From contig SVUB01000008.1 in assembly GCA_015063495.1 (NCBI GenBank), positions 1 to 32,519 on the forward strand: a DNA stretch of 32,519 nucleotides. Reading direction: 5' to 3'. The DNA is from Oscillospiraceae bacterium (GTDB lineage: Bacteria > Bacillota > Clostridia > Oscillospirales > CAG-272). Below the pieces are notes generated by a model. It searched no databases and was not told where the DNA came from. It saw only the letters and a program-made list of their open reading frames with translations. A program made the translations under genes and the position numbers. Within the stretch, counting starts at the first letter, position 1. Each line of letters begins with the position of its first letter. Positions 3,592-13,918 of this stretch are shown here, in pieces.

Positions 3592-5496
3592 TTACCTCTT
3601 AAGAATAACGGCAGAATACGGCGGGAGAGGAGAGTCTTCTGTAAATACCGCATCTGAGAGAAGGTCAAACCCGCTGATGTCAGTTGCAAAAGGCCTGTCT
3701 CCGGCATTTATCGCAACTGTTATTTTGTTTTCACCGTCATATCTTTCGTATTCTATATAAGAGCCCTCGTATTTATTTACCCTAAAGAGTCCGGCACTGA
3801 AAACACCGTTTTCTTTTCTTATTTGTCCAAGCAGGCGGTAATGTGAGAGAAGTTCACCGTTTTCATGTCCCCAAGGGAATGGCATACGGCAGAACGGATC
3901 TCTGTAACCCTCAAGTCCGGCTTCATCTCCGTAAAATACCGACGGAATTCCGTATACAGTATACTGGACAACACTTCCGAGTTTTAAGAGCTTTACTGCA
4001 CGTTCTTTTGCCGTATCACTCATTTTTACCTTTGCAAGCTCGCAGTTAGGCAGATCATATTTATCCTCACCGCCGAGTACAGTCAGTATTCTTTCTGTGT
4101 CATGAGTGCCGAGGATGTTCATAAGAGAATCCGAAACGCACTTCGGGTAAGAAGCGTATATCTCAGTCAGAGCACGGGCAAGCAGTGCGGAGTCACCCGA
4201 GAGAAGATAATCAAGCGTAGCCGAGCGGAAGGGATAATTCATAACGCTGTCAAGCTGTGCTCCCCGCAGATATTTTCTGCGTTTGCCGTAGGCTATCTTA
4301 TCTGCCGCATTCTCCCAGACCTCGCCGATTATAACGGCATTATTATCCGAAAGATCCTTTGCGGTCAATCGAAGCTTGTCAAGGAAAGCATCGGAGAGCT
4401 CGTCTGCAACGTCAAGTCTTATGCCACCGATGCCCATTTTCGTATATTTACCTACTACCGAATCCTCACCCATGACGAAATAATCAAGACATTTCTCATA
4501 AGAGTGGTTAAGTCTCGGAAGGATAGGGATACCCCACCAGCTCTCGTATTCATCGGGGTGATTCTTAAAGTTATACCAATTATAATATTCAGATTCTCTT
4601 GACTCGTAAGCGCCGAGAGAATCGTATTTTCCGTATTTATTAAAGTATAGGCTATCGTCGCCCGTGTGGTTAAAAACTCCGTCAAGAATTATTTTTATAT
4701 CTTTTCGGGAGGCTTCCGTTATGAGTTCTTTGAGCGCTTTATCTCCGCCGAACATTTCGTCGACCGTCATATAGTCGCCCGTATCGTATTTGTGATTGGA
4801 ATATGCTTTGAATATAGGGCTGAGATATATAACGCTGACACCGAGAGAAACAAGATAATCAAGCTTTTCTCTTACGCCGATAAGATTACCGCCGAAAAAA
4901 ACGTTGTTTTTTACGAATGCACCGGGATACTCGCCATATTGCGGCACGCCGTTCTCCCAGTCGTGATTCATTTCGGCATCGGGACGGCATACAGGCTCAA
5001 ACGAACCCTTTGCAAAGCGGTCAACGAATATATGATACATAGTTCCGCCATGGAACCATGTGGGAGTGTTAAATCCGTCCTCGTAAACGAGCAAACGGAA
5101 TTTTGAACCCTCCTTTGAGGAGAGATCAAGGTGGAGATTATCCTCTGTCGAGGAAAAGAGGGAGCCGTTTTCGGTTGGGAAAATAAAATCATAATAGAAG
5201 AGACCGGATTTTTCTTCGTGACAAATGTCAGAGAGCTTTATTTCAATCTCGAAAATGTCACTTTCGTTTTCCGTTCCGTTATAGGATAGGGGAAATTCAA
5301 AATATCCGTGTCCGTCGGCGTCAATACGCAGGGTAGGATAGGTTATGCCGAACCTTCTCGGTATAGTAAGGGAAAAAATCAGTTGCGTGCCAAATGAGAA
5401 CGCTCCGAAAATCGAAGCGTCCTCACCGCATATAATTTTTTTGAAAATTATTCCATCGTTCTCTGCCATAGCACAGCCTGTGAATTTTTCAAACAT
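3592..5496 (-). CDS. Cytosolic GH13 alpha-glycosidase (neopullulanase / alpha-amylase-like)
   Basis: GH13 motifs all present: ILDGVFNHTG, GIRLDVADEL (nucleophile), VIIGEVWENA (acid/base), LMNILGTHDTERI. No signal peptide. AGGA RBS. Confidence 0.93.
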   Translation of the reverse strand: MFEKFTGCAMAENDGIIFKKIICGEDASIFGAFSFGTQLIFSLTIPRRFGITYPTLRIDADGHGYFEFPLSYNGTENESDIFEIEIKLSDICHEEKSGLFYYDFIFPTENGSLFSSTEDNLHLDLSSKEGSKFRLLVYEDGFNTPTWFHGGTMYHIFVDRFAKGSFEPVCRPDAEMNHDWENGVPQYGEYPGAFVKNNVFFGGNLIGVREKLDYLVSLGVSVIYLSPIFKAYSNHKYDTGDYMTVDEMFGGDKALKELITEASRKDIKIILDGVFNHTGDDSLYFNKYGKYDSLGAYESRESEYYNWYNFKNHPDEYESWWGIPILPRLNHSYEKCLDYFVMGEDSVVGKYTKMGIGGIRLDVADELSDAFLDKLRLTAKDLSDNNAVIIGEVWENAADKIAYGKRRKYLRGAQLDSVMNYPFRSATLDYLLSGDSALLARALTEIYASYPKCVSDSLMNILGTHDTERILTVLGGEDKYDLPNCELAKVKMSDTAKERAVKLLKLGSVVQYTVYGIPSVFYGDEAGLEGYRDPFCRMPFPWGHENGELLSHYRLLGQIRKENGVFSAGLFRVNKYEGSYIEYERYDGENKITVAINAGDRPFATDISGFDLLSDAVFTEDSPLPPYSAVILKR

Positions 5497-5510: not shown

Positions 5511-7937
5511 TTACTTATCAAGTCTCTTAAGATTCCAGATCTTCTCTGCGTAGTCGTTTATAGCACGGTCTGCGGCAAAATAACCCGCAGAGGCAATATT
5601 CATAAGTGACATTCTGTTCCAACGGTCTCTGTCTCCGTAGATCTCGATAGCTTTTTCGTGAGTCATACGGTATGATTCAAAGTCTGCAAGGCACATATAC
5701 GGATCTGCGATACCGTGACCAGAGAGCAGATAAGAGCCAATGCCGGCAAAGGACTGACCTGCAAAGCCGATATTCAGGCGGTCTATTATTCTCTGGAGTC
5801 TGGGGTTGTTTGCATAATATTCAGCTGAACGATAGCCCTTAAGCCAAAGATCCTCGACCTCGTTCTTATTAAGACCGAAGATAAACATATTGTCATCACC
5901 TGCCGCCGCAAGCATCTCGACGTTTGCGCCGTCAAGAGTGCCGATGGTAAGAGCACCGTTTATCATAAGCTTCATACAGCCTGTTCCGCTCGCTTCCTTA
6001 CCTGCAAGCGATATCTGTTCGGATATCTCAGCGGCGGGAATGAGAGCTTCAGCCATGCTTACGTTATAATCCTCAAGGAATACTACCTGAAGCTTTTCAC
6101 GAAGTTTGGGATCGCTCTCAATATCTCTGCCAATGAAGCAGAGAAGCTTGATTATCTCCTTTGCCATTGCGTATCCGGGAGCAGCCTTTGCTCCGAATAT
6201 GAAGGTCTGAGGTCTTATATCAAGATTCGGGTTTTCTTTCAGCGCACAGTAAAGGTCGATAATGTTAAGAGCATTAAGAAGCTGTCTCTTGTATTCATGC
6301 AGACGCTTTATCTGAACGTCAAATACAGAATCAGGGTCGATGCACTTGCCCGTTTTCTTCATAAGAAGATTTGAGAAAGCGACCTTGTTCTGATGCTTTA
6401 TCTCACCAAGCTCGGAAAGTGCGTTTTTATCGTCCGCAAGCTTTTTAAGCTCGGAAAGCTGCATTGGGTCATGGCGGTAACCGTCACCTATATGGCTTTC
6501 GATAAATGATGCAAGTGCAGGATTAGCATAGCAAAGCCAGCGTCGATGCGCAATACCGTTAGTTACGTTTGTAAAGCGCTCGGGATACATACGGTAGAAG
6601 TCCTTGAATACGGAGTCTACAAGAATATCCGAATGGAGCTTTGAAACGCCGTTGATATGATGCGAACCGATTACAGAGAGGTTTGCCATACGAACCTGGG
6701 AATAAGCTATAATAGACATTCCGGATATGCGGTTCCAATTTCCGGGGAAGTGCTTCCAGGCCTCGGCACAGAAGCGCTCGTTTATCTCTCTTATTATTGT
6801 GTAGATTCTCGGAAGCTTGAGTCGGAAGAGGTCCTCGTTCCAGGTCTCGAGTGCTTCCGGCATTACCGTGTGGTTTGTATAGGATACAGTTCTCTTTACA
6901 AGGTCCCAAGCCTTATCCCAGTCGAAGTAATACTGGTCTATAAATATTCTCATAAGCTCGGGGATGCAGAGAGCGGGGTGAGTATCGTTTATATGAATAG
7001 CTACCTTTTCAGGCAAATTATCAAGTGTTCCGTAAACTGCCATATGGTCACGCACGATGCTCTGGCAGGAAGCGGAAACAAGGAAATACTGCTGACTGAG
7101 GCGCAGAAGCTTACCCTCGGTGTGGTTGTCGGAGGGGTAGAGCACCTTTGAGATTATTTCTGCATTTGTGCTTTCCTCGAGGGCCTTAGTATACTGTCCT
7201 TGCGTAAAGAGTCCCATATTGAAATTATGGATATCTCTTGCCTTCCAGAGTCTGAGTTGGCTTACAGCCTTGCTGTCAGCTCCCGATATCATCATATCAT
7301 ATGGAACAGCCTCGATCTCCTCGCAGTCCTCATAGAGCACCTCGCATCTGCCGTTTACCCACTGCTCCTTGACTCTTCCGCCAAATCGCACGTGAAAAGT
7401 TCTGTCTGTTCTCGGGACGAGCCATACCTCGCCGCCGGGAAGCCATACGTCGGGAAGCTCTATTTGCATACCGTCAACTATCATCTGCTTAAAAAGACCG
7501 TACTCATAGCAGATAGAAAATCCGGTTGCAGGGTAATCGAGGGACGAAAGTGAGTCCATAAAGCAGGCTGCAAGACGACCAAGACCGCCGTTTCCAAGAC
7601 CTGCATCAGGCTCACAGTCGTAAAGCTCATCAAGCTCGAATCCGAGGTCGCTAAGAGCCTTTGCATACTCGTCGGTCAGACCGAGATTGCAGAGATTCGT
7701 GCGCATAGATCTTCCGAGGAGGAACTCCATGCACATATAGTAAACTCGCTTTGCGCCCTTTTCGTTTACTTCGTTCTTAAAGCCCTTGCGTTTTTCGGTC
7801 AGTATGTCCTTGAGAGTCAGCGCTACGGATTTGTATACCTGATCCTTTGTAGCGTCTGCGGGAGAAGCGCCGAAATAACGTGAAAGCTTACTTTCAATAT
7901 TTTCTTTGATTTCGTTTGCCTTTGGGGTGAAGTTCAT
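5511..7937 (-). CDS. glgP: Glycogen phosphorylase
   Basis: 808 aa; YYMCMEFLLGRSMRTNL, NDTHPALCIPELMR, VFDVQIKRLHEYKRQLLN, and PLP-site region EASGTGCMKLMINGALTIGTLDGANVEM. Confidence 0.98.
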   Translation of the reverse strand: MNFTPKANEIKENIESKLSRYFGASPADATKDQVYKSVALTLKDILTEKRKGFKNEVNEKGAKRVYYMCMEFLLGRSMRTNLCNLGLTDEYAKALSDLGFELDELYDCEPDAGLGNGGLGRLAACFMDSLSSLDYPATGFSICYEYGLFKQMIVDGMQIELPDVWLPGGEVWLVPRTDRTFHVRFGGRVKEQWVNGRCEVLYEDCEEIEAVPYDMMISGADSKAVSQLRLWKARDIHNFNMGLFTQGQYTKALEESTNAEIISKVLYPSDNHTEGKLLRLSQQYFLVSASCQSIVRDHMAVYGTLDNLPEKVAIHINDTHPALCIPELMRIFIDQYYFDWDKAWDLVKRTVSYTNHTVMPEALETWNEDLFRLKLPRIYTIIREINERFCAEAWKHFPGNWNRISGMSIIAYSQVRMANLSVIGSHHINGVSKLHSDILVDSVFKDFYRMYPERFTNVTNGIAHRRWLCYANPALASFIESHIGDGYRHDPMQLSELKKLADDKNALSELGEIKHQNKVAFSNLLMKKTGKCIDPDSVFDVQIKRLHEYKRQLLNALNIIDLYCALKENPNLDIRPQTFIFGAKAAPGYAMAKEIIKLLCFIGRDIESDPKLREKLQVVFLEDYNVSMAEALIPAAEISEQISLAGKEASGTGCMKLMINGALTIGTLDGANVEMLAAAGDDNMFIFGLNKNEVEDLWLKGYRSAEYYANNPRLQRIIDRLNIGFAGQSFAGIGSYLLSGHGIADPYMCLADFESYRMTHEKAIEIYGDRDRWNRMSLMNIASAGYFAADRAINDYAEKIWNLKRLDK

Positions 7938-7970: not shown

Positions 7971-9413
7971 TTAGAGAAGGGAGCTGTACATATCAAGATA
8001 TTTTTCAGCAGATACCTTCCATGAGAAATCCGTATTCATTATTTTCTTTATGAGAGCATCTCTCTTGTCTCTTTCGTGGTAAAGTGTAAGAGACGCGTAA
8101 ATTCTGTCAAGCAGCTCTCCGCTGTTATAGCCTGCAAATGTAAATCCGTTGCCCTTAACGGTTTCACCGTCGAGCCAATAGCCCTTTATTGAATCGTAAA
8201 GACCGCCCGTTTCTCTTGTTACGGGAATAGCGCCGTATCTTGAGGCTATCATCTGCGAGAGACCGCAGGGCTCGCTCTTTGAGGGCATAAGGAAGATGTC
8301 GCAGGCAGCGTAGATGCGCTTTGAGAGGTCTCTATCATACATTATCATCGCTCTTACGGAGTTCGGGAATGCATTTTCCAGCCCTCTGAAGAATGCTTCA
8401 TATTCTCCCTCACCCTTTCCGAGTATGATGAGCTGAACGTCTCCCTCGGAAACGACCTTGTAGATTATCTCTGATATTATATCGATACCCTTATGTGCCG
8501 CAAGACGGGAGATTATCGCTATCATCGGCACGTTTTCTCTTTCTGGCAGTGCAAGCTCACGCTGAATGGCGAGCTTATTCTGCACCTTGTTAAGAGGCTT
8601 ATCTGCAGAATAGTTTTCAGAGATAACGGGGTCTGTTTCGGGATCGTAGTAGGTATAGTCTATACCGTTCAGAATTCCTCTCAGTTTATATGAGTTTTCT
8701 CTGAGGATAGGGTCAAGACCGTGAGAATACTCGGGTGACTTTATTTCCTCCGCATATCTCGGGCTGACGGTTGAAACGATATCAGCGCAAACTATAGCGC
8801 CTTTCATAAGATTTATGCATCCGTCGTATTCAACTATTGAATGCTGCCAATCGGTAAGAGCAAAAACGTCTCCGAGAATAGCAAAATCGTATTTTCCCTG
8901 ATATTCAATGTTGTGAATTGTAAATATTGCACGCATAGAAGAGTATCTTGGGTCAGTCGAAAAGAGTGTTTTCAGATATATGACCGAAAGAGCGCTCTGC
9001 CAATCGTGAGCGTGGAGAATATCGGGGAAGAAACCGATGCAGGGAAGCATCGAGAGTGCCGCCATAGAGAAAAATGCAAATCTTTCTCCGTCGTCAAAGT
9101 TGCCGTAGAGGGTAGGGCGCTTAAAATAGAATTCATTGTCTATGAAGTAGTAGATAACGCCCTCACGCTCAAGACTCATAACTCGGCAGTATTGCTCACG
9201 CCAGGAAAGTCTTACCGTGAAAACGTATTCCTCCTTCATCATCTGTCTGAATTCGTCCTTTACCTGACCGTAAAGCGGCATTACCACTCTTACGTCGGTG
9301 CCCTCGGGATCTGCGCTCTTGATTGCGGCAGGGAGAGAGCCAAGAACGTCGCCAAGACCGCCCGTTGCGGCAAACGGCATAGCTTCAGAGCCAACAAAAA
9401 GTATTTTTTTCAT
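7971..9413 (-). CDS. glgA: Glycogen synthase (ADP-glucose, GT5)
   Basis: MKKILFVGSEAMPFAATGGLGDVLGSLP N-terminus (KxGGL-type site), DILHAHDWQSA, MPSKSEPCGLSQMIASRYG. GGAG RBS supports start 9413 rather than 9428. Confidence 0.98.
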   Translation of the reverse strand: MKKILFVGSEAMPFAATGGLGDVLGSLPAAIKSADPEGTDVRVVMPLYGQVKDEFRQMMKEEYVFTVRLSWREQYCRVMSLEREGVIYYFIDNEFYFKRPTLYGNFDDGERFAFFSMAALSMLPCIGFFPDILHAHDWQSALSVIYLKTLFSTDPRYSSMRAIFTIHNIEYQGKYDFAILGDVFALTDWQHSIVEYDGCINLMKGAIVCADIVSTVSPRYAEEIKSPEYSHGLDPILRENSYKLRGILNGIDYTYYDPETDPVISENYSADKPLNKVQNKLAIQRELALPERENVPMIAIISRLAAHKGIDIISEIIYKVVSEGDVQLIILGKGEGEYEAFFRGLENAFPNSVRAMIMYDRDLSKRIYAACDIFLMPSKSEPCGLSQMIASRYGAIPVTRETGGLYDSIKGYWLDGETVKGNGFTFAGYNSGELLDRIYASLTLYHERDKRDALIKKIMNTDFSWKVSAEKYLDMYSSLL

Positions 9414-9432
9414 ATTTATTATCTCCAAAAAA

Positions 9433-10569
9433 TCAGATCATTGTGCCTTTTCCTATAAAGAATGGAAGCGTGCTGTGTCCCGAAAGATTTCTGCCGTCCT
9501 TTATAAGAACGTTTTTATCCGAGACAACGCATCCGAGAGAAACGTCGTTACCGACTACGGTATCCTGCATAAGGATGCAGTTCTTTACAACAGAGCCTTT
9601 GCCGACCTTTACACCTCTGAATATGATGGAGTTTTCAACAACACCCTCTATCACGCATCCGTCGGCAATAAGGGAATTTGTGACCTTAGCGCCATCAGCA
9701 TAGCGTGTGGGGGCGGAATTGCGTACCTTTGTGAGAATGGGTCTGTTGCGCTCTCCGAAAAGGGAAGCACGAACGTTGTTCTCAAGTAGCTTCATATTGC
9801 AAGCGTAGTATCCTGCAAGGGAGGTTATCTGAGCAAAGAATCCGTCATAATGGTATACGAAATAGTTTGCACGGAGAAGATTGCGGTCAATAACGTCGCT
9901 GTAAAAGCTTGTGTATCCGTGAGATGAAGCATCAGCGACCGCAGACTGAAGATAAGATCTCGTTGCAACGATAATATTCGTGCTTATCTCTCTCATGCCG
10001 TGCAGACGGTGGTTGAAATGTACAACGTCGGATATTCTGTTGTTTTCATCCGACGTTATAACTGCGCTTCCGCTTGATATCTCGAAATTGTCGGTATCGA
10101 CAGTGGTAGTAACCACAGTTATATCAGCTCCTGTCTCCTTGTGCTGACGAATAACGTCGGAAAGATCGATGTTGCTTATTGCGTCGCAGTCAGAGAGAAC
10201 TACGTAATCCTCGTTGCATCTGGATATGAAATCCATAGCTCCCATCATGGCTTCAAGTCTTGTGGAGTAGAGCTTATTTGCTCCCGCACCGCTGAAGCTG
10301 GTGATAAACGGGGGAAGAAGCTTTATTCCGCCAGAGCGACGTGCAAGATCCCAGTCCTTTCCTGTTCCTATGTGATCAAGAAGGGACTGATAATTGTTGT
10401 GAGTTATAACTCCTACCTTTGTTATGCCCGAATTTACCATATTTGAGAGGGTAAAGTCGATAAGGCGGTAGCGGCAGCCGAAGGGAACGGATGCCATAGT
10501 GCGTTTTCTTGTGAGATCGGGTATGTTTTGATCGTGAATATTAGAAAATACAAGTCCTACTGCGCTCAT
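9433..10569 (-). CDS. glgD: GlgD, ADP-glucose pyrophosphorylase-like regulatory subunit
   Basis: MSAVGLVFSNIHDQNIPDLTRKRTMASVPFGCRYRLIDFTLSNMVNSGI is the GlgD-type variant of the GlgC N-terminus (no GGxGxRL loop). Directly downstream of glgC. Confidence 0.95.
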   Translation of the reverse strand: MSAVGLVFSNIHDQNIPDLTRKRTMASVPFGCRYRLIDFTLSNMVNSGITKVGVITHNNYQSLLDHIGTGKDWDLARRSGGIKLLPPFITSFSGAGANKLYSTRLEAMMGAMDFISRCNEDYVVLSDCDAISNIDLSDVIRQHKETGADITVVTTTVDTDNFEISSGSAVITSDENNRISDVVHFNHRLHGMREISTNIIVATRSYLQSAVADASSHGYTSFYSDVIDRNLLRANYFVYHYDGFFAQITSLAGYYACNMKLLENNVRASLFGERNRPILTKVRNSAPTRYADGAKVTNSLIADGCVIEGVVENSIIFRGVKVGKGSVVKNCILMQDTVVGNDVSLGCVVSDKNVLIKDGRNLSGHSTLPFFIGKGTMI

Positions 10570-11837: not shown

Positions 11838-12767
11838 TCATTCTTCACATGTGACTATTATGATTTCTGAAAATTCCGAGCTAATGTGAGAGTGGAGCTT
11901 TTTCATAAAATCATTCTTTTCGTCGGTGCCACATATACAGATCCCGTCTACGTGATATTTTTTTATCCAAAAATCCGCGCATGAAATAAGAAAGTTGCAA
12001 TTTATTTCATTCTGCAGATCAATAACCGCATTGCCGTTTGAACCTACAGTCTCATAAAGCTTTTCACCGTCAAAAAGCAGAAGTCCTTGTTCCTCATGTG
12101 AGAGGTGAGAGATTGGAATATCAAGCAGTACTCCAACACCGGATCTGTGAAGCTCGTTTATAAGATTCATAAAGTCCTTCGGTGAGCCGAGCCTTGATGA
12201 TGGTGCAAAGTAGCCGTATATGCCGTAATCCTTTTCGGACAAATTGCTTCTCTCCATTATGGGGGAGAGGCGAATGTGAGAATATCCCATTCTTTTTGCG
12301 GATGACGCAAGCTTTATCGGAAGCGATGCTGTTTTCAGCTCACCGCCCTCTATCTGACGTAATAGATCTACGGGGTAAGCTTTTATATCTGTCTTTTTTT
12401 CTCTTTTTTTCAGCCATCCGCCGTCCTGCCACTCAAAGCCCTCGATATCATAGAATCTTGAAGCAGTCGCAGGATGAAGCTCAAAATGAAAGGCATAAGG
12501 GTCGGATTTATATAAAAACTTGCCGTCCTTTTCAATTCTGTATTTGTAGTTGGAAAATTCCCCGAATCCATTGTCCACGGGAACGTAGCGTTCCCATATT
12601 CCACCGCCTATCATCTTCATGGGCAGTCCTTTTCCCCATCCGCAAAAATCACCTACAAGAAATACCTCATCTGCATGAGGGGCGAGGACACGAAAAACGA
12701 ACCCGTCACCGTTTTTGTGCGAGCCGAAAAAATCATACTGAAGATAATTTTCGTTATGAGAGTTCAT
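11838..12767 (-). CDS. GlgB-like protein: CBM48 plus truncated GH13 half-barrel with degenerate active site
   Basis: N-terminus FRVLAPHADEVFLVGDFCGWGKGLPMKMIGGGIWERYVP...YKYRIEKDGKFLYKSDPYAF matches CBM48 of branching enzymes. AKRMGYSHIRLSPIMERSN...GYFAPSSRLGSPKDFMNLINELHRSGVGVLLD matches the GlgB barrel start. The nucleophile motif is DGICICGT and the protein ends at IIIVTCEE. Confidence 0.88.
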   Translation of the reverse strand: MNSHNENYLQYDFFGSHKNGDGFVFRVLAPHADEVFLVGDFCGWGKGLPMKMIGGGIWERYVPVDNGFGEFSNYKYRIEKDGKFLYKSDPYAFHFELHPATASRFYDIEGFEWQDGGWLKKREKKTDIKAYPVDLLRQIEGGELKTASLPIKLASSAKRMGYSHIRLSPIMERSNLSEKDYGIYGYFAPSSRLGSPKDFMNLINELHRSGVGVLLDIPISHLSHEEQGLLLFDGEKLYETVGSNGNAVIDLQNEINCNFLISCADFWIKKYHVDGICICGTDEKNDFMKKLHSHISSEFSEIIIVTCEE

Positions 12768-12802: not shown

Positions 12803-12831
12803 ATTATACACCATTTTCAATATAATTTCAA
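12803..12831 (-). promoter_or_regulatory. Putative sigma-A promoter for the glg operon
   Basis: TTGAAA-N17-TATAAT on the minus strand (-35 at 12826-12831, -10 at 12803-12808). Confidence 0.6.
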
Positions 12832-12959: not shown

Positions 12960-13199
12960 ATGATAATCAAGCTGACTGTTGACAGAATAGAGAGCGGCAT
13001 CGCAGTATGTATTGACGATAAAGAAAGAAAATATGAATGTCATATAAATGCCGCAGAGGGGGATATTTTCGAGGCCGATATATCCGATAAAGGGGAAGTC
13101 ACATTCATTCGTAAGCTCGAAAATGAAACCCTTGAAAAGAAAACGAATAATGCTTCGAGACTGAATGCACTTTTTATGAGAGGTGGTAATAAAAAATGA
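12960..13199 (+). CDS. DUF3006-like small protein
   Basis: MIIKLTVDRIESGIAVCIDDKERKYECHINAAEGDIFEADI resembles the DUF3006 pattern. AAAGGA RBS before ATG 12960; stop overlaps the next start. Confidence 0.75.
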   Translation: MIIKLTVDRIESGIAVCIDDKERKYECHINAAEGDIFEADISDKGEVTFIRKLENETLEKKTNNASRLNALFMRGGNKK

Positions 13200-13918
13200 T
13201 TTTTAACGGTTTTATGGCAAGAGGACTTTATCAGACTCTGGTCGGAGAGGGAAGCTCTCCCGTCCTTTTTATTTTATTCATACTTGCTTGTATAGCAGTA
13301 CCTTATCTTCTCGGCTCGCTCAATTTTGCTGTCATTATCTCAAAGGTGAAGTATCACGATGATATAAGAAAGCACGGCAGCGGCAACGGCGGTATGACAA
13401 ATATGCTCCGTACGTACGGTAAGGGCGCGGCAATATGCACTCTTCTTGGAGACATGCTCAAGGCTGTGGCCTCGGTCACTGTCGGATGTGCGCTTCTCGG
13501 CCTTACTCTCGGCGGTTATATGGCGGGATTTTTCTGTATGCTTGGTCATATGTTCCCTGTGTATTATCACTTCAAGGGCGGAAAGGGCGTTGCGGTAACG
13601 GCGGCAATGGCTCTTATGCTCAACCCTGTCGTATTCGGAATACTTTTGCTTGTTTTCGTCATAGTAGTCGGTGGAACAAAATACGTCTCCCTCGGCTCTG
13701 TCATGTGCGTGCTTATTTATCCCGTTATACTCCACAGAATTGATAAAATAACTACCCCTTGGTTTATAGCAAACGGCACTATGTGGGGCTTTGACGTTCT
13801 TTTTGCATTTCTTGTTGCCGTAATGGTCGTCTTTATGCACAGAAGCAATATCAAGCGTCTTATGAGCGGTACCGAGTCAAAAATTTCTCTTGGAAAGAAA
13901 AAGGATGATAAAAAATGA
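13196..13918 (+). CDS. plsY: Glycerol-3-phosphate acyltransferase PlsY
   Basis: YLLGSLNFAVIISKVKYHDDIRKHGSGNGGMTNMLRTYGKGAAICTLLGDMLK and HMFPVYYHFKGGKGVAV are diagnostic PlsY motifs; multipass. Confidence 0.95.
   Translation: MIFNGFMARGLYQTLVGEGSSPVLFILFILACIAVPYLLGSLNFAVIISKVKYHDDIRKHGSGNGGMTNMLRTYGKGAAICTLLGDMLKAVASVTVGCALLGLTLGGYMAGFFCMLGHMFPVYYHFKGGKGVAVTAAMALMLNPVVFGILLLVFVIVVGGTKYVSLGSVMCVLIYPVILHRIDKITTPWFIANGTMWGFDVLFAFLVAVMVVFMHRSNIKRLMSGTESKISLGKKKDDKK

Follow-up and report, generated by a model that had tools for sequence, protein, structure and literature searches.

Analysis of a 32,519-nucleotide stretch of an Oscillospiraceae draft genome (the whole stretch analysed is called the window below) revealed a glycogen gene cluster on the minus strand, in the order glgB', glgC, glgD, glgA, glgP and a GH13 hydrolase gene. 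The following features were assigned.

11838..12767, minus strand: glgB', gene 1 of the glycogen operon, encoding a dead, truncated GlgB-like protein of 309 amino acids, GH13_9 (open reading frame and alignment)
12492..12728, minus strand: CBM48 domain, residues 14 to 92 (Pfam PF02922, 1.3e-14); conserved, pLDDT mostly 88 to 96
11847..12371, minus strand: half GH13 barrel b1-a1-b2-a2-b3-a3-b4-a4-b5, residues 133 to 307 (AlphaFold and Foldseek); fast-evolving
11928..11948, minus strand: former nucleophile motif, DGLRVDA changed to DGICICG, with a loop deletion next to it (alignment)
11841..11864, minus strand: last strand b5, IIIVTCEE, followed by the stop codon; site of the acid/base Glu in active GlgB (alignment and AlphaFold)
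12803..12831, minus strand: promoter-like TTGAAA-17-TATAAT, a consensus match only, 36 bp 5' of the start codon
10584..11783, minus strand: glgC (profile match; 87 to 88% identity to sister genomes)
9433..10569, minus strand: glgD, a glgC paralogue (TIGR02092, over cut-off)
7971..9428, minus strand: glgA (TIGR02095, over cut-off)
5511..7937, minus strand: glgP (TIGR02093, over cut-off)
3592..5496, minus strand: GH13 hydrolase, final gene of the cluster (cyclomaltodextrinase and GlgX-type models, both below cut-off)
13196..13918, plus strand: divergent plsY-like gene, a synteny marker common to the sister glgB loci

The glgB' gene has an unbroken, frameshift-free reading frame of 309 codons with an ATG start. 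The first-pass annotation had described a CBM48 domain with a half barrel, the motif DGICICGT, loss of the following loop and a stop after IIIVTCEE without a frameshift, and all of this was confirmed by the open reading frame, Pfam and alignment. In the alignment, DGLRVDAV of GlgB is changed to DGICICGT, with Cys in place of both the conserved Arg and the nucleophile Asp. The loop that follows b4 is shorter by about 25 residues, and related GlgBs have an N-terminal LAPYLFHQGT element that this protein has lost. The C terminus reads ...SEIIIVTCEE before the stop codon, corresponding to ...DVMMIAEES in active GlgB. An ungapped reading of this final strand places Cys at the acid/base position, and the third Asp is absent. 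The protein lacks the Asp-Glu-Asp catalytic triad that marks a GlgB, and strands b6 to b8 and the C-terminal beta domain are missing, leaving it short of a complete (beta-alpha)8 barrel. Pfam detected a partial alpha-amylase barrel at residues 158 to 226, and the NCBIfam GlgB models covered the protein only to about model position 307 of 633, with scores below cut-off (200 versus 577 bits for NF008967; 164.5 versus 464 for TIGR01515). The CBM48 domain, which also marks a GlgB, is present. Glucan-contact residues and the Asp-Glu-Asp triad have been described for human GBE1 (PMC4581599). Mapping by eye revealed that the window protein retains the GDFxxW Trp, the Tyr-Lys and the Lys of CBM48 and carries Leu at the position equivalent to GBE1 W91, where active copies have W in 96 of 108 cases and F or Y otherwise.

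The glgC start lies 69 bp downstream of glgB' if ATG is used and 54 bp downstream if TTG is used, in agreement with the roughly 70 bp of the first-pass annotation. No terminator-like site was seen between the two genes. Because of this and of the promoter-like site upstream, although such sites are no more numerous in the region than in shuffled sequence, glgB' probably forms the first cistron of the glg operon.

The AlphaFold model of the window protein (mean pLDDT, 85; pTM, 0.87) consists of CBM48 followed by a (βα)4β5 unit that ends exactly at b5, and the helices predicted are those of the half barrel. Since nearly all of the 42 homologues in the input alignment were active-type GlgBs, the model indicates compatibility with the fold and is no independent proof of it. 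The best Foldseek matches in the PDB were the branching enzymes 8zqa and 6joy (TMq, 0.84 to 0.87). GlgB (GH13_9; E. coli 1M7X, Rhodothermus 6JOY/8ZQA, the latter 31 to 33% identical to the window protein) shares with it the locus, descent, CBM48 and the first half of the barrel but differs in having the triad, b6 to b8, the C-terminal domain and the loop after b4.

Eight active-site positions, which we take to be Y300, D335, H340, R403, D405, E458, H525 and D526 in E. coli GlgB numbering, were compared among relatives. Three sister genomes of the same genus (G002, G003 and G004) carry at the orthologous locus, next to the same plsY-like gene, a GlgB with all eight residues (646 amino acids in G003 and 651 in G004; the G002 copy runs off the end of its contig). 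This result indicates that the dead state of glgB' is derived. GlgC of the window is 87 to 88% identical to that of the sisters, whereas the GlgB-like protein reaches just 44 to 46% over its whole length, which together with the active GlgB of the sisters places the loss in the window lineage within the sampled genus. Full-length GlgB in sister genomes had been expected to mark glgB' as an isolated pseudogene; such copies exist, but an isolated pseudogene does not follow from them.

The two parts of the protein diverged unequally. Residues 1 to 125 are 55 to 58% identical between window and sisters, compared to 63 to 68% between sisters, and residues 126 to 309 are 36 to 38% identical, compared to 84 to 88%. 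The corresponding dN values were 0.36 versus 0.20 to 0.27 among sisters for CBM48 and 0.62 to 0.65 versus 0.07 to 0.10 for the barrel. The window protein keeps all 15 CBM48-region positions that are conserved in at least 97% of the active-type GlgBs of the family but only 28 of 55 such positions in the first half of the barrel, where most other motifs are eroded too. Neutral drift to the observed identity, simulated roughly from sister sequences with indels ignored, predicted 8 to 9 stop codons, compared to none observed (P of none, ≤0.003). The GC content at the codon positions of glgB' resembles that of the neighboring glg genes. With CBM48 evolving near the sister rate and the barrel diverged without a stop codon, the gene is probably not simply decaying, and we infer that its product is under selection now. 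No close relative of glgB' was found, and its dS to the sisters is saturated.

A second truncated form was found in another genus. Genome G107 encodes a 335-amino-acid protein upstream of glgC, in the same operon slot, with a similar loop deletion, the same end point (LLITDDE) and DGLRVDAV changed to DGLRVCRP. Its CBM48 region is 50% identical to that of the active-type sister G192, compared to 52% between two active-type sisters; for the barrel, the values are 46% and 79%. In the GlgC tree, the window genome (G000) groups with G002 to G004 (100) and G107 with its own genus (98). As each operon lies within its own genus, truncation is best taken to have happened twice, independently. A single origin was considered because the two forms joined on a quick GlgB tree, but their branches are long and the GlgC tree separates the operons, and it was rejected. 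The first-pass annotation had proposed a search for homologues of 300 to 310 residues at glg operon heads; in about 395 genomes of the family and 394 of the order, no copies of about 300 residues were found beyond the window and G107. G107 also contains a second dead GlgB (L277:6762-8624, contig 137), which is full length (621 amino acids; residues YESARERR) and has no glg gene within the fetched flanks.

To place these two cases, the GH13_9 GlgBs fetched from the family were classified residue by residue. In 28 genomes (27 plus G301), one or more of the triad residues D405, E458 and D526 are missing from every GH13_9 copy. The dead copies span 436 to 713 codons apart from two short forms and copies cut by contig ends, their frames are open in essentially all cases, and nearly all are immediate 5' neighbors of glgC, separated from it by short gaps. 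A GlgC tree of 87 operons called for 18 changes to account for the dead state, at least 11 of them forced by supported branches; GlgB catalysis was lost at least 11 separate times in the family. The nucleophile is replaced by C, S, G, R, E, K or N or is deleted, depending on the lineage, and there is no shared new motif. Several further copies were recorded. In G239, an operon-head remnant of 466 amino acids (L262:3037-4434) retains the C-terminal domain but no longer has CBM48, the opposite of what is seen in the window protein, and the dead GlgB of G291 has lost most CBM48 residues. L114 (486 amino acids), G285 and short contig-end reading frames were rejected as truncations, being explained by N gaps, an internal stop or contig ends.

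The window genome contains a second branching enzyme on another contig, a full-length GH13_8 protein of 663 amino acids (for the meaning of the subfamily, see PMC6339891). It can be aligned over its entire length to human GBE1 (4bzy, 4e-210) but just partly to GlgB structures, and it retains the DGFRFD, AED and SHD motifs. No third locus was found in this genome with the GH13_8 query. Among the 395 family genomes, 83 carry GH13_8. It is present in 27 of the 28 genomes with dead GlgB, compared to 18 of the 132 with active-type GlgB (Fisher, 1.4e-17), leaving 114 active-type genomes (84 + 30) without it, although absence from draft genomes is never certain. The first GH13_8-negative set had been picked by similarity to the window protein, and 32 low-scoring GH13_8-negative genomes were added as a correction. 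In the seven genera with both kinds of GlgB, all 18 dead genomes carry GH13_8 (within-genus permutation, 5e-5); for independent pairs on the GlgC tree, agreement averaged 5.6 versus 0.1 (median sign-test P, 0.03). The sole exception is G301 (87% complete), which has a dead operon GlgB (L310:1988-3976; residues GGWHPEHT) and no detected GH13_8. With its position at the head of a glgC operon, the lost triad, the open frame and GH13_8 elsewhere in the genome, glgB' fits the dead group.

Selection was assessed between dead copies; the first-pass annotation had named a dN/dS near 1 as a sign of relaxed selection on glgB'. The pair G339/G352, with the same residues altered in both copies (third Asp, H340, D335, R403 and Y300 changed; nucleophile and acid/base retained), gave 0.105. 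The pair G279/G326 gave 0.149, and values of 0.142 were obtained both for G011/G101, where the nucleophile segment is deleted in both and dS is saturated at 2.5, and for G173/G271, possibly separate losses. Active-type pairs gave 0.04 to 0.15. Summed over the 26 dead proteins in which the domain is present, about 95% of the conserved residues are kept in CBM48 and about 70% in the first half of the barrel. These results indicate that selection still acts on several of the dead copies, which probably have a non-enzymatic role; for glgB' itself, the saturated dS gave no corresponding ratio. In G339/G352 (L271 versus L270), the dS of the dead glgB was 1.08 against 0.17 for the glgC next to it, a roughly sixfold difference to which recombination or codon bias may contribute.

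These comparisons make it fairly probable that, after GH13_8 took over branching, the operon GlgB became a non-catalytic accessory protein, most likely one that binds glucan. The earlier proposal of a retained, non-catalytic GlgB derivative without recent decay is thereby supported by the regional constraint, the open frame, the predicted fold and the parallel cases under purifying selection, whereas the scaffold or glycogen-binding role that it proposed, with GlgA, GlgC and GlgD as partners, is a candidate function. The GH13_8 branching enzyme and the recurrence across genera go beyond what that annotation could see. In the accessory-protein reading, the old GH13_9 gene of the operon would have lost catalysis while an intact GH13_8 enzyme elsewhere in the genome could supply branching, and the operon GlgB, freed from catalysis, would have been trimmed to CBM48 and half a barrel. 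The protein would bind glucan through CBM48, to which the retention of this domain points, and the surface of the half barrel may dock on the GH13_8 enzyme, on GlgA or on GlgC/GlgD, in the manner of ISA2 with ISA1 or of PTST with starch synthases. Counting against this reading are the Leu at the position of GBE1 W91, the loss of CBM48 in G239 and of most of its residues in G291, and the GH13_8 genomes in which no GH13_9 was detected. The order favored, GH13_8 gain, catalytic loss and then trimming, is undated and is suggested by the association of dead GlgB with GH13_8. A broader proposal, which we consider rather doubtful, is that a displaced core enzyme repeatedly becomes the non-catalytic partner of its replacement: dead GH13_9 and active GH13_8 would form a complex resembling ISA1/ISA2, and the window protein would be the minimal form, CBM48 with a stable half barrel.

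A glgB made redundant by GH13_8 might instead be a decaying pseudogene that has not yet acquired a stop codon. This is unlikely, though a somewhat nearer contender than the explanations that follow. It would account for the active-type GlgB at the same locus in the sisters, the strongly accelerated barrel and the very divergent dead remnants in G348 (436 amino acids) and G305 (483 amino acids). Detectable GH13_9 is also absent from some GH13_8 genomes (G034, G234, G237, G263 and G315), so the dead protein is dispensable in some backgrounds. Against decay stand the near-normal constraint on CBM48 with its 15 of 15 conserved residues, the lack of the expected stop codons, the open frames across essentially all dead cases and the dN/dS of 0.10 to 0.15 between dead orthologues. 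The position of nearly all dead copies directly 5' of glgC would also suit a frame kept open only to let transcription and translation run on into glgC and avoid polar termination, with an idle protein as product. Such a role predicts neutrality at the amino acid level, yet CBM48 residues are selectively kept and the dN/dS between dead pairs is low; moreover, the operon could simply begin at glgC, and we regard this explanation as improbable. A new catalytic function of a Cys-bearing site is brought to mind by the Cys at the nucleophile position in the window protein, G107 and G173, but it is very improbable, given substitutes that differ by lineage without a common new motif and the loss of half the barrel. 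The window genome is a metagenome-assembled draft of 95 contigs and 73% completeness, but an assembly or binning artefact can practically be dismissed, because the gene sits inside a 32.5-kb contig whose synteny is conserved, its codon usage is that of its neighbors, the contig falls in its genus by GlgC and there is a parallel case.

Relatives of alpha-glucan enzymes without catalytic activity are already known. The plant isoamylase subunit ISA2 is non-catalytic, evolves faster than its active paralogues, is under selection and forms complexes (PMC12510319, PMC3787081). Like the window protein, it combines GH13 with CBM48, has lost catalysis and acts in alpha-glucan synthesis, and by this analogy it is the nearest working analogue. 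It differs in being a full-length GH13_11 debranching-type protein of ancient single origin with a known partner, whereas the window protein is a truncated GH13_9 form of a kind that arose recurrently. PTST1/2/3 and FLO6 are non-catalytic CBM48 glucan-binding proteins that target or prime alpha-glucan enzymes (PMC6243121), but they are plant proteins with coiled coils and not degraded branching enzymes. GlgD, which has been described in some bacteria as a subunit that regulates catalytic GlgC (PMC10395257), is likewise a non-catalytic relative and is encoded in the same operon as glgB'; it differs in its nucleotidyltransferase fold and as a duplicated subunit, compared to conversion of the operon's only GlgB copy. 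No report of a GlgB-derived non-catalytic protein was found in the open-access literature. What the present cases add to ISA2, PTST and GlgD is derivation from GlgB with many origins in one bacterial family. Because these origins go together with the presence of a second branching enzyme, the retention of dead enzymes becomes directly testable in replicated natural cases.

Further unusual GlgBs were recorded. Three GlgBs of 'Ruminococcus' metagenome-assembled genomes of the RUG series (L105:782-2854, L110:5875-7941 and L112:2501-4519) retain the nucleophile and acid/base residues but carry N or S in place of D526 and N in place of H340; their genomes have another GH13 branching-enzyme-like match, and GH13_8 was not seen. 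G015, in which GH13_8 was not seen either, encodes a very divergent extra GlgB of 621 amino acids with R403 changed to Cys (L278:5396-7258) in addition to an active-type GlgB. Two GlgBs without active-site residues, L270:2264-4168 (615 bits) and the G301 copy (605 bits), score over the NF008967 cut-off of 577 bits. Standard annotation would label such copies as active branching enzymes, which would mislead metabolic models of gut Clostridia.
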